Shown here in pieces: positions 20,493 to 64,000 of a stretch of DNA of 64,000 nucleotides; positions within the stretch are counted from its first letter, which is position 1, and every line of letters begins with the position of its first letter. Source of the stretch: Batillaria attramentaria (Eukaryota; Mollusca; Gastropoda; Batillariidae); NCBI GenBank assembly GCA_018292915.2, contig JACVVK020000005.1, positions 1,983,501 through 2,047,500 on the forward strand, given 5' to 3'. The position numbers and the translations under genes are program-made. Under the pieces are notes generated by a model. That model did no database searches, had not been told where the DNA came from, and was given only the letters and a program-made list of their open reading frames with translations.

Positions 20493-21849
20493 TTACGTCA
20501 CGACATGACGTGGTTCGACTTCGTACGGGAATGGGGACGAAGGAGCTTTGCCACTGAGTCGCTTGACGTGAAATTGTTGACTGCCAGTGATCACCCGGTC
20601 CCGGCGGCTCCGTCAGTCACGTCGACGTCACGCCGGACGGCCGCGGACCGTCGACGGAGTCAGTTTTGCCGCTGCGTTTTATCCACAGTCGCCGGGTCGT
20701 GTCAGTTTAATATATGTAGTACACTGAATTCAGTGTGACAAGCGCCACGGTAAGCCTAGTTCCAGTGCTCTACTAAGACGGGGGCTTCGAAACGGACCTC
20801 AGTGCTGACTTCAGTTCTCCGTCAAAGCGGCCTATGGACAAAGCGAAGTCAGTAAAGCGCACCTCAGTCAGATGCCGCCGCGGCGTGAAGCATCACATCA
20901 GTCTGAGTTTGTGGATTCAGTGCCGATCAGTGCCGGTCAGCTTTCAACTGACTCAGTGAATCAAAGAAATGCAGGCCGCCGGGTACGGACGTGGTATAAC
21001 TTGAATAATTTTCCCACTGAACTGGTTCGATGCCCCCGATTGCCGCGTAAAATACACCGTCCACTGTGACACTCGTTTGTTGATACATGTACTATCCGCC
21101 GACCGTAAAACTGCTCGTTAAAACTCGCAACCGGCGTTTTACTGATCAACGTGACTCGATCAGTCACTATGATGGTGTCACAGGTGTAGTTTTCCGTAAT
21201 CCGGGCACCTCACTGTGAAAACTGTATATAACTTAATTTATCATGTCAGTTTTTCTGAAATAAAACGAACAGAAACCAAAATACAGCCGAGGGTACGGCT
21301 TTACAGTGCCAGTGTTGCCGCTGAACTGAAGCCAAGGCCGGTTATTTCTAACTTTGTCAGTACACGGTATCCTCGACAGCACACGTGTAGGGTCGGATGC
21401 GGTAAGCCGGTATGACATACTACGGGGGAGGCTATTATGGAGGGAACTCATACAGGTCTATTTTTAGACGATTAGGGTTAGGTTTAGGGTTAGTTTTAGG
21501 CTTAGGGTTAAGGTTAGGGTTAGGGTTTGGTTAGGGTTTGAACGCGCTATCGGGCGTTTCCGGAATCCCATGACCTCAGGCGACGTCCGTCTAAAAATAG
21601 ACCTGTACGAGTTCCCTCCAAAATAGCCTTCACCACATACTACACCGGCGGAGGAACATTCATAAGGCCCCAAAACAAAAACAAAAAACAAAAAAAATCA
21701 CCAACAGTGACACTTTGCGTAAAAAAATGCTTGAATAGTGCTAGAAGGCCTGCTGCTAAACTTTGCCGGATAAGTGAATTAAAACTGACTCTCAGTTTCA
21801 GTCGATGTCCTACGCGACCGGCCCGCCGCTGGGGCACCGGCTCCTTTTT
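20493..21849 (+). repeat. R1 repeat, copy A, left part
   Basis: First of three copies of a long interspersed repeat (others at 34366 and 51751). It starts at ACGTCACGACATGACGTGG and is rich in CAGT and ACTG (about 15 CAGT in 20570-20960, where 1.5 would be expected). It is interrupted by a MITE at 21424 and then by a 3.1-kb element at 21850. No ORF with recognisable homology. Confidence 0.9.
21424..21634 (+). mobile_element. 211-bp MITE carrying telomere-like TTAGGG repeats, copy 1
   Basis: Inverted ends of about 43 bp share GAGGGAACTC and ACAGGTCTATTTTTAGACG. It is flanked by the 9-bp duplication ACATACTAC (21415-21423, 21635-21643); R1 copy C has the empty site with one ACATACTAC. Next to the left end lie about 70 bp of variant TTAGGG repeats. 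The 9-bp duplication and G-rich ends fit a Mutator-like (MULE) MITE. Confidence 0.92.
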
Positions 21850-22252
21850 GGTCCGCGCTATATCCAGGGGCATTCAGGCCCCCACACAAACCAATGACGT
21901 CAAACGTGTCATTGGTTTGTGCGTCCCCCCTCGCGCTGCGGCCTCGCCACGCGGCGGTTCGCTCGGTGAAACCGAACGTTATTATACGCATCCCTGTAAT
22001 TTAGCCTGATCCTGCTATGTCAAAAAGGTAATTCTTATGTTCCTCCACCGTGCGCGTGGTAGTATATCAATTCAGCAATGCTATTAGGTCTCACAAGACA
22101 CCGCGACCGTACTGCCGAGACGCTCTGTACTAAAAGCTGCCCGGCGCATGGTTGCTCTCCGGTCCTGCCCGGACCCAAACGAACACTTCTATGGGCTGGA
22201 TGAGTGGAATGAGTTTTACAAAACTAAACGATTTTTTGCTCTGTGTGTGTGT

Positions 22253-22287
22253 GTGGGGGGGGGGGGGGGGAGGGGGGGGGTAGGGGG
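22253..22287 (+). repeat. G-rich tract, quadruplex candidate
   Basis: Runs of G separated by single A or T bases form a candidate intramolecular G-quadruplex on the plus strand, inside the Mutator-like element. Confidence 0.8.
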
Positions 22288-22389
22288 GTATGAGTGTGTG
22301 TCACTGTCAGTAGTTATCACATACACACTTTACATTTATTGCACGGTTCTTTGAAATGTAAACAGGTGGTTGATGCATTAATTTAATTA

Positions 22390-22454
22390 AACACACACAC
22401 ACACACACACACACACACACACACACACACACACACACAGAGAGAGAGAGAGAA
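22390..22454. repeat. (AC)n then (AG)n microsatellite
   Basis: About 25 AC units followed by AG units, inside the Mutator-like element. Confidence 0.97.
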
Positions 22455-22639
22455 ACACTCGCAAAATTGGCGTTTCACGTGTTTTTCGTCACGTATCGGG
22501 AAACGGCGGCGAGACCAGAAAACATTTACATGACAGGTCACATCACTGGCCAGTGCCCCAACTTTTCGATATCGTAATAATATCATGATAACAGAACAGG
22601 AAATGTGGTTTGTAGGACATATGACGTGCATAAAAACGC

Positions 22640-62567: not shown

Positions 62568-62641
62568 TGTGTGTGTGTGTGTGTGTGTGTGTGTGTGTGT
62601 GTGTGTGTGTGTGTGTGTGTGTGTGTGTGTGTGTGTGTGTG
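62568..62641. repeat. (GT)n microsatellite in R2 copy D
   Basis: About 36 GT units, at the place of the compound array in copy A. Confidence 0.97.
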
Positions 62642-63080
62642 TTCCACAATATTGATTTCATTTGAGAGTATACTGTGACAATACTGATAAGATACTTACA
62701 TTGTATATACTGATTTTGCTCAGCATTTTATTACGCAGGCAATTTCACTTGCTTACTGACTCTGTTTTGATACTTGTCAGTATCATAATTATCATCTTCA
62801 TCAACATCTTCGTCAACTCCATCATCCATTCGTTCCGGCATTGGTTTATTGTTATTGTTTACCAATAAAGGGGTGTGAATCACGACAATGTGAACTGATG
62901 TACCATGAAGAGAGAAGTCATAAAAAATGTTGCCTTTCAGTCGTCCGTTGTTTTTTTTAACTTTGCTTGCTTGTCTTGATTACTCCCCGTGGGACTGCCT
63001 TCCCTAAACACTTCATACCCCTTACTAACACATTTTTGATAAAGGTTGCTGTGAGGGCCGATCTACGCTGGGTTACCAAT

Positions 63081-63376
63081 AGATATTCTTTACCAGTACT
63101 GAGTTTACCGACGATGAGCAATTACTTTATAGATATTCTTTACCAGTATTGAGTTTACGGACGATGAGCAATTACTTTATAGATATTCTTTACCAGTATT
63201 GAGTTTACCGACGATGAGCAATTACTTTATAGATATTCTTTACCAGTATTGAGTTTACCGACGATGAGCAATTACCTTATAGATATTCTTTACCAGTATT
63301 GAGTTTACCGACGATGAGCAATTACTTTATAGATACTCTTTACCAGTATTGAGTTTACCGACGATGAGCAATTACT
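63081..63376. repeat. 50-bp minisatellite, six copies
   Basis: Units start at 63081, 63131, 63181, 63231, 63281 and 63331, exactly 50 bp apart, each AGATATTCTTTACCAGTATT followed by GAGTTTACCGACGATGAGCA and ATTACTTTAT. Only a few substitutions separate the units. It is absent from R2 copy A. Confidence 0.97.
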
Positions 63377-63461
63377 CAATTACTCAAAATCTCTGCACGT
63401 CCCTAGCAGCAGATTCTGATCCAGTTATGTCAACGGGGTAAATTCAAGCATCATCAATTTT

Positions 63462-63511
63462 TTGTTTGTTTGGTTGTTTGTTTGTTTGTTTGTTTGTTTG
63501 TTTGTTTGTTT
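63462..63511. repeat. (GTTT)n tetranucleotide array
   Basis: About eleven GTTT units with one GGTT variant. Confidence 0.95.
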
Positions 63512-64000
63512 AAGTAAGTAGGCAGCAAACCTTTGCACCGTACGTCTACATGTATTATTTTCAAAGCTTTCAGTATTTTAGCTCCCCTGGGCGCGAGGAA
63601 TTAAAACGGAGCCGGACCCAAAACCCACAAAAGCAGCCGACGGCCTAGGACACGCTCTGCGGGCGGGAGACTCAGTGTCGATGACACCGAAACTGAAGTT
63701 AGCAACAGGCCACCCTTTTTACCCATACGGTGGTTCAGTGTTGGTGATTTTTTTGTTTTGGTGCCAGGTCAGTGAATCTAACCCCCCTCCCCCCTCCCCC
63801 TTTTGTAGTATTTTACGCTGACTTACATTCGACCTTGCGCGTGCCTGCGCTATAGAGGATACTAATAAAGCAGACGGGCTGAAGTTGCTGCATGCTGTTT
63901 CCATAAACGGGACTTCCCGATAACCTGGGAACTATATGGCTAACGCGGTTAATTCAAGAGAAGTAAGCAAAGAAGCTTACATTAGTCAAGTTTCCGCTGG

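Follow-up and report, generated by a model that had tools for sequence, protein, structure and literature searches.

The window described here is a 64,000-nucleotide stretch of the genome of the snail Batillaria attramentaria, analysed over its whole length for short insertions that separate otherwise near-identical repeat copies. In the commonest class of these insertions a single base X is expanded to X·C·comp(X)·G·X, comp(X) being its complement, so that A becomes ACTGA, T becomes TCAGT, G becomes GCCGG and C becomes CCGGC. The formula is identical when read on either strand, and confidence in it as a rule is high. In a less frequent form, a dinucleotide W becomes W·C·rc(W)·G·W, where rc(W) is its reverse complement. 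The events were read from assembled contigs (PacBio Sequel, polished with Illumina reads). The passages cited from the assembly report give 863 contigs (PMC10382545), and the genome searched here amounted to 715,342,989 bases in 863 contigs. The window contains three copies of a repeat, named A, B and C, and further stretches dense in these words:

20494..27312, no strand assigned: repeat copy A, in the pieces 20494-21424, 21635-21850 and 24992-27312 (self-BLAST, three-way alignment)
34373..37816, no strand assigned: repeat copy B (self-BLAST, three-way alignment)
51750..55062, no strand assigned: repeat copy C, with ACTGA at 7.1 times and GCCGG at 6.1 times expectation
28301..34300, no strand assigned: second dense stretch, mostly outside the A/B/C repeat (ACTGA 4.4 times, GCCGG 3.0 times)
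61601..64000, no strand assigned: third dense stretch (ACTGA 4.2 times, GCCGG 3.2 times)

The events themselves lie in these copies, in the dense stretches and in two families of short interspersed elements, SINE1 and SINE2. They are given below with the evidence for each; L037 is a locus adjoining the window, and the 307-kb listing is described further on:

62709..62713, forward strand: A to ACTGA, against 29773 (pair realignment, window scan)
30221..30225, forward strand: A to ACTGA, against 63920 (pair realignment, 307-kb listing)
33647..33651, forward strand: A to ACTGA in an old SINE2 copy; the old L037 copy and five young ones lack it, therefore a gain
33668..33672, forward strand: G to GCCGG in the same SINE2 copy; common to the L037 copy, absent from the five young copies
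52435..52439, forward strand: A to ACTGA, against 21259 and copy B (realignment, scan, three-way alignment)
26415..26419, forward strand: A to ACTGA, copy A against copy B (scan, three-way alignment)
26594..26598, forward strand: A to ACTGA, copy A only (realignment, scan, three-way alignment)
26627..26631, forward strand: A to ACTGA, copy A against copy C (realignment, scan)
26644..26647, forward strand: CTGA in copy A only, the following base substituted (scan, three-way alignment)
54100..54104, forward strand: A to ACTGA in copies A (26241) and C, not in B (realignment, three-way alignment)
38486..38490, forward strand: A to ACTGA in a SINE1 copy, T to TCAGT on the strand of the element (gain against the consensus)
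21792..21796, reverse strand: T to TCAGT in copies A and C (52758), not in B (realignment, scan, three-way alignment)
51922..51927, reverse strand: T to TCAGT in copy C, matched stretch GTCAGT, not in A (realignment, scan)
28986..28992, reverse strand: T to TCAGT, against 62327, matched stretch AGTCAGT (realignment, scan)
62293..62299, reverse strand: T to TCAGT, against 38668, matched stretch GTCAGTC (realignment, scan)
20582..20589, forward strand: TG to TG·C·CA·G·TG, the two-base form, in copy A, not in C (307-kb listing, three-way alignment)

Fourteen pairs of sites named by the first-pass annotation were realigned, and 13 of them showed a clean four-base gap (30222, 62709, 33647, 52436, 26595, 26628, 26241, 54101, 35209, 62295, 28988, 51923 and 21793); the remaining one, at "about 51903" against 20661, turned out to be a complex block. 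The gaps at 26241 and 54101 represent a single event visible in two paralogues. Self-alignment of the window was then scanned for four-base indels with matched 10-nt flanks, without preselection of words. The rotation class of ACTG/CAGT made up 14 of the 24 indels, and the next commonest words occurred twice each. Since 6.2% of 4-mers in the repeat copies belong to the class, chance is excluded (binomial tail 1.4e-11, or 1.3e-10 for 13/23 after merging of one paralogue pair). None of the 14 events was a whole tandem copy, which upholds the earlier view that slippage is not the cause. A larger set of 307 kb comprised the window, 20 ten-kb loci at round coordinates, four adjoining ten-kb loci and the locus L024, and was searched with 8-nt flanks. 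In it the class supplied 25 of 67 four-base rows (26643/26644 being one event entered twice), of which 23 lay in the window or the adjoining L037 and two elsewhere; the between-copy events are therefore concentrated there.

The direction of the changes has been read from the SINEs. SINE1, a high-copy family resembling transfer RNA, has 29 matches in the 307 kb, and its copies in the window and L037 bear CAGT, TCAG and related inserts that are missing from the consensus. The consensus contains no ACTG, CAGT, CTGA or TCAG, and therefore no local copy to serve as template for the A/T word; it has GACT at the site called 3 below, and GCCGG and CCGGC once each. In SINE2, two old copies (33480-33760 in the window and L037:7127-7404) were compared with the five young ones. 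Of the ACTGA gains, one is confined to the window copy and two to the L037 copy; a GCCGG gain, common to both, is older. The SINE1 consensus and the old and young SINE2 copies thus agree that these are gains rather than losses, as had been assumed.

Four fixed sites of SINE1 were screened across the whole genome for copies carrying one to nine additional bases, the slash marking the join: site 1 (GAAT/GG), with 159 matches, of which the first 100 were listed and a tandem array of six identical copies was afterwards counted once; site 2 (AGCA/CAAA), with 51; site 3 (GGAC/TTCT), with 80; and site 4 (CACC/CGTA), with 67, all of them listed. Rule-type gains were found on many contigs, which together with the window scan bears out the recurrent and dispersed nature of the four-base events. 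Among the first 100 of the 159 matches at site 1, 53 inserts were four bases long and 33 were CAGT. Non-tandem four-base inserts were predicted by the bases of the site in 38/45 cases at site 1 (again the first 100 of 159), 9/14 at site 2, 6/10 at site 3 and 4/6 at site 4. Pooled, 57 of the 75 listed inserts obeyed the rule, where the share expected by chance is 0.8-1.2%; four more TGAC inserts at site 3 agree with the rule, but were kept out of the tally since each is identical to a tandem copy. A T site led to CAGT, an A site to CTGA and a G or C site to the CCGG class. The join of site 4 is bordered by C alone on either side, and its four-base inserts were CCGG (3), CGGC (1), GGTC (1) and TATA (1); CAGT was absent, which shows the word to depend on the base. 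The one fixed tetranucleotide of the first-pass annotation accordingly gives way to a word set by the base struck, with ACTGA/TCAGT at A and T, GCCGG/CCGGC at G and C, and W·C·rc(W)·G·W at two-base targets. Its statement that every event turns A:T into ACTGA/TCAGT holds at A and T sites, but missed the G/C form and with it the general rule. Two-base-form inserts were found once each: CCGTGA (AC·C·GT·G·AC) and CACTGG (CA·C·TG·G·CA) at site 2, TTCAAG (TT·C·AA·G·TT) at site 3 and GCCAGT (TG·C·CA·G·TG) at site 1. Other insert lengths were equally or more common at sites 2-4 (one-base inserts were 25/67 at site 4), so the rule governs the four-base class and not all insertions.

The same words are enriched in five dense stretches, two of them outside the window (L003 and L037) and the remainder inside. 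The complement form is the sole XCYGX word raised in all five, ACTGA by 3.1-7.1 times and GCCGG by 3.0-6.1 times; the other three A forms peak at 2.0 times and the other G forms at 3.2 times (GCGGG, in L003 alone). Since most stretches drew attention through their richness in ACTGA, selection explains part of its enrichment; neither GCCGG nor the two-base form played a part in picking them. One-base rule words exceeded 200/200 order-1 and 200/200 order-2 simulations in each stretch. Order-3 simulations, whose models already contain ACTG, CTGA and CCGG, matched or exceeded the observed count in some runs for all five. The two-base form occurred 46 times in the pooled stretches against 8.5 expected (5.4 times, both strands counted), compared with 1.5 times in the background, and direct, complement-only and reversed middles reached 0.85-1.84 times. 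Counts per stretch were 5, 5, 0, 7 and 2 against order-1 means of 0.3-1.2, so this form rests on three of the five stretches. Whichever base stands to its left or to its right, ACTGA is raised 3.6-5.4 times, which makes the C and the G independent of the flanks. The background set was taken without L003, L008, L013, L015, L020, L024 and L037, and the pooled stretches without the dense bins of L020 and L008 and without an array in L013. The latter (L013:4001-4350), an imperfect run of GACTGAA/GACGATGA-like units, looks like a dense stretch at 19 ACTGA per kb, but was left out because it is tandem. The densest 1-kb bins hold 18-24 ACTGA/TCAGT words. Subterminal transposase-binding repeats, with TCAGT to the left and ACTGA to the right in the A/B/C repeat, were considered as their source and dropped, dissimilar DNA in L003 being equally dense.

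As a whole, these observations are best explained by an undescribed break-repair insertion process acting in the germline, to which we assign a probability of roughly 0.5. A double-strand break staggered by one base, sometimes two, would be filled in to leave X on both ends; the duplication of the outer X would follow from this fill-in of the stagger. A polymerase would then add one untemplated C to each 3' end and copy back the last base or bases, giving tails X-C-comp(X) on one side and comp(X)-C-X on the other strand. The complementary tips of these tails may pair over one base, and filling and sealing of the gaps would leave the four-base insert. The inner C would thus belong to the left end, and the inner G would be the C of the right end seen on the other strand, with a middle base that is the complement of its own last base as seen from either end. 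Blunt joining of the same tails would produce X·C·comp(X)comp(X)·G·X, a five-base insert, and tails lacking the copied base would produce X·CG·X, a three-base change.

Several findings bear on this scheme. In the dense stretches the spacer pair C..G is raised 4.72 times and C..C 1.45 times, which points to a two-ended origin, since one polymerase adding C twice predicts C..C; taken alone, the two-ended route is given about even odds. Among the indels of the 307 kb, the blunt-class forms TCAAGT and GCCCGG occur twice each, and GCGG and CCGC, the form without a copied base, are also present. The 6-mers X·C·comp comp·G·X number 62 against 34.4 expected, and other fillers 468 against 478.5. A grammar of such tails, run at SINE1 sites 1-3 with C..G and seven other spacer pairs, accounts for 46/61, 20/34 and 10/43 of the non-tandem inserts of at least three bases (chance 3.0, 0.7 and 0.7), and C..G is the best of the eight pairs at each site. 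The full pathway, in which each 3' end receives a C and a fold-back copy of its last base before sealing and several percent of some stretches are rewritten, is put slightly short of even odds. REV1 adds C without reading a template base and is no more than a candidate for the C addition, which would perhaps be protein-templated.

A number of points weigh against this interpretation. We infer the break, the tail and the enzyme, none of which was directly observed, and a one-base fold-back round a single C is sterically odd in cis and would call for either an intermediate hairpin or a pocket in the enzyme. Of the end-joining transferases polymerase theta is the best known, and it favours dA over dC in the passages cited (PMC4912351). 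In the grammar, other spacer pairs come near at single sites (TG 38 at site 1, CA 16 at site 2, TG 9 at site 3), which they do because words are ambiguous where the flanks supply letters, and 33 of the 43 inserts at site 3 are left unexplained, variants of a TTCTA duplication making up 22 of these. The pairs G..C (2.25 times), A..T (1.88 times) and T..A (1.74 times) are raised as well, an excess that may consist of words overlapping ACTGA (AGTCA, GACTG, GTCAG). The top 6-mer, CCCGGC/GCCGGG (27 against 4.3), is not the blunt form, and the three-base form (4 against 0.5) is too rare to be established, the spacer T..A reaching 6 there. In a younger SINE, with four full-length copies 92-94% identical to the window copy, the one site searched gave a single match, a tandem duplication, and no rule insert. 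SINE copies bearing CAGT do not clearly lie in DNA richer in ACTGA (5.6 against 4.5 per kb, 6+6 loci, p=0.20), so a concentration of SINE gains in dense stretches is unsupported.

The main rival to break repair is that the inserts are excision scars of a DNA transposon. The element would duplicate one target base, and its flanks would pass through hairpins as in hAT-type excision, but with a centre base taken from the element, a fixed terminal C on each 3' side. By reasoning, opening of such hairpins followed by annealing of the tails would leave just the sequence X·C·comp(X)·G·X, and the passages cited attribute hAT footprints to opened hairpins joined through microhomology (PMC1978519). This reading is nevertheless unlikely: the densest bins, with their 18-24 words per kb, would require about as many insertions and excisions; no inserted element turned up at such a site, although no search was aimed at one; and the centre is C whatever the flank, unlike the hAT hairpin centre, which is the complement of the flanking base. 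We also know of no transposon superfamily with a one-base target duplication. A single replication polymerase that switches strands twice (W, rc(W), W) and adds one base per jump would give the observed order and small sizes, and short template switches are a recognised type of mutation in the literature listed. It is an improbable source, as repetition of one untemplated base at the two jumps should give C..C rather than the far more enriched C..G, the spacer-free W·rc(W)·W is not enriched (1.09 times against a background of 1.11), and the C and G do not track the flanking bases.

Explanations in which the word is copied or inherited are less probable again. Spread by SINE subfamilies, or by selection for a protein-binding motif, would agree with the dominance of CAGT at site 1, by far its commonest insert, and with the shared bases 62T (in 5/6 CAGT copies) and 100A (in 4/6), but each of these is also present in 2/6 controls, and the six CAGT copies are not mutually closer (mean distances 0.161 between CAGT copies, 0.143 between CAGT copies and controls, 0.118 between controls). 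Moreover, base-dependent words arise at four different SINE1 sites, and low-copy DNA gains them likewise. Slippage, or correction of an imperfect inverted repeat, templated by a nearby copy of the word, is a still weaker contender. ACTGA or TCAGT does lie within 30 nt of 9 of the 12 window receiving sites examined, compared with 47% of positions picked at random in the copies concerned, and the G/C word is not new to the SINE1 consensus; yet A/T words that this consensus lacks are gained at sites 1-3 (its GACT lies at site 3, where the four TGAC inserts already mentioned were dropped as tandem copies), the 57/75 SINE inserts were counted after removal of tandem copies, the window events show no full tandem copy, and the word gained at G/C sites differs from that at A/T sites. 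Least probable of all is an artefact of assembly or polishing: paralogues have some events in common and differ in others, the same base-dependent insert occurs in at least 33 separate SINE copies at one site, and no polishing cause for this is known to us.

Break repair of the kind proposed here has relatives among known systems. P nucleotides arise from opened hairpins. At joins of variable, diversity and joining (V(D)J) segments they are inverted copies, 1-3 bases long, of the broken end, mainly of two bases and very rarely of one, as the cited passages have it (PMC3528771). The snail inserts share with them the short inverted copy of a broken end at a join, but have C and G between the copy and the ends, are dominated by one-base copies, and occur in the germline and genome-wide; direct abutment, W·rc(W)·W, is at background level (1.09 times for one base and 1.27 for two, against 1.11 and 1.38). 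Polymerase theta combines untemplated additions with snap-back copying in end joining, but its products are described in the cited passages as variable, with dA preferred (PMC4912351), whereas the snail inserts have mostly one outcome, with C. Yeast foldback insertions likewise duplicate the DNA of a break end in inverted orientation, in stretches as short as 2 nt, though in the passages cited they depend on inverted microhomology already present and on a loop, which in the example examined was 41 nt (PMC11724301), and the snail centre is one base. The enrichment of ACTGA whatever its neighbours, a pooled measure, tends to argue against such microhomology. For hAT elements, the target duplication is typically 8 bp and the hairpin is centred on a base complementary to the flank; here all neighbours of ACTGA are equally enriched and C and G are fixed. 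The scars of Ac/Ds, a hAT system, resemble the snail inserts in that hairpin opening and microhomology joining leave small changes, with a 7-bp target duplication in the passages cited (PMC1978519). The duplication in the window and SINE events is of one base, sometimes two, with C at the centre. Tc1/mariner elements leave three-base footprints, with the TA target duplicated around the scar. The CNG-like triplet between duplicated target bases recalls them, but here a single A, T, G or C is struck, the neighbours are free and the target determines the middle letter. P nucleotides, polymerase theta, yeast foldback and hAT each share one or two steps with the snail process, and most of their testable defining features are absent from it; the individual steps proposed are known, and it is their fixed combination that we regard as new. 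No report of the signature was found in the open-access literature, among the matches listed.

As a rule an insertion mutation is a tandem copy, a templated piece or random filler. If the present reading is true, a new mutational signature would be added to these, whose commonest product is predictable from a single base and can be read in alignments of a snail genome. It would expose end-processing steps of a repair or cutting system and would generate novel sequence four to six bases long, the densest bins holding about 20 rule words per kb. Motif enrichment in this genome would then have to be viewed with caution, as it can reflect mutation and not selection.

The genomic context of the events is uneven. 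CpG observed/expected ratios near 1 tend to mark dense bins (Spearman 0.18, 294 bins), the mean number of ACTGA per kb being 3.5 at ratios of 0.5-0.7, 5.7 at 0.9-1.1 and 11.5 at 1.1-1.6, the last in only 6 bins. Half of L034 is CpG-rich without ACTGA enrichment, and a link of dense bins to unmethylated DNA is suggestive only. The window itself is a sharp CpG mosaic, with ratios mostly of 0.3-0.6 at 1-18 kb and mostly of 0.7-1.2 at 19-39 and 51-57 kb. At 41917-50064 lies CpG-poor DNA resembling a long interspersed element (LINE), with matches to endonuclease, reverse transcriptase and RNase H, at least two copies and broken frames. ACTGA is at 0.9 times expectation over 40-50.5 kb, so the events predate, or do not reach, the LINE insertions.

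The A/B/C repeat was followed through the part at 52807-54100, which is low-copy and local to C2:1.97-2.04 Mb (the genome counts are lower bounds); beyond the three window copies it has at least one further long match, a partial one, at C2:1970027-1970494. Its interpretation as a transposon family was rejected on these grounds. Copy A is rich in ACTGA/TCAGT, with 1-kb bins of 18-20 words, and is broken up by other DNA that copies B and C lack. The neighbouring L037 also carries dense DNA, like the stretch at 61601..64000. In all three copies near-identical stretches adjoin others with 10-20% substitutions; about 480 bp (25104-25583, 35527-36006 and 52919-53394) are nearly free of substitutions across the three, which suggests gene conversion or mosaic duplication. 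A palindrome, TACATGTA, occurs in the copies at 26 times the expectation of a dinucleotide model and is also present in many background loci. Between the first two pieces of copy A, a 211-bp element (21424-21634) has an inverted copy, 92% alike, at 28324-28535, and holds a TTAGGG-like array between inverted ends. It is flanked by direct repeats ACATACTAC, a possible 9-bp target duplication, and copy C has the empty site. Finally, 58206-61552 is an array of units of about 300 bp with CTTGACCTTGAGTCAAGGTCA-like cores, members of a family found in several other loci.

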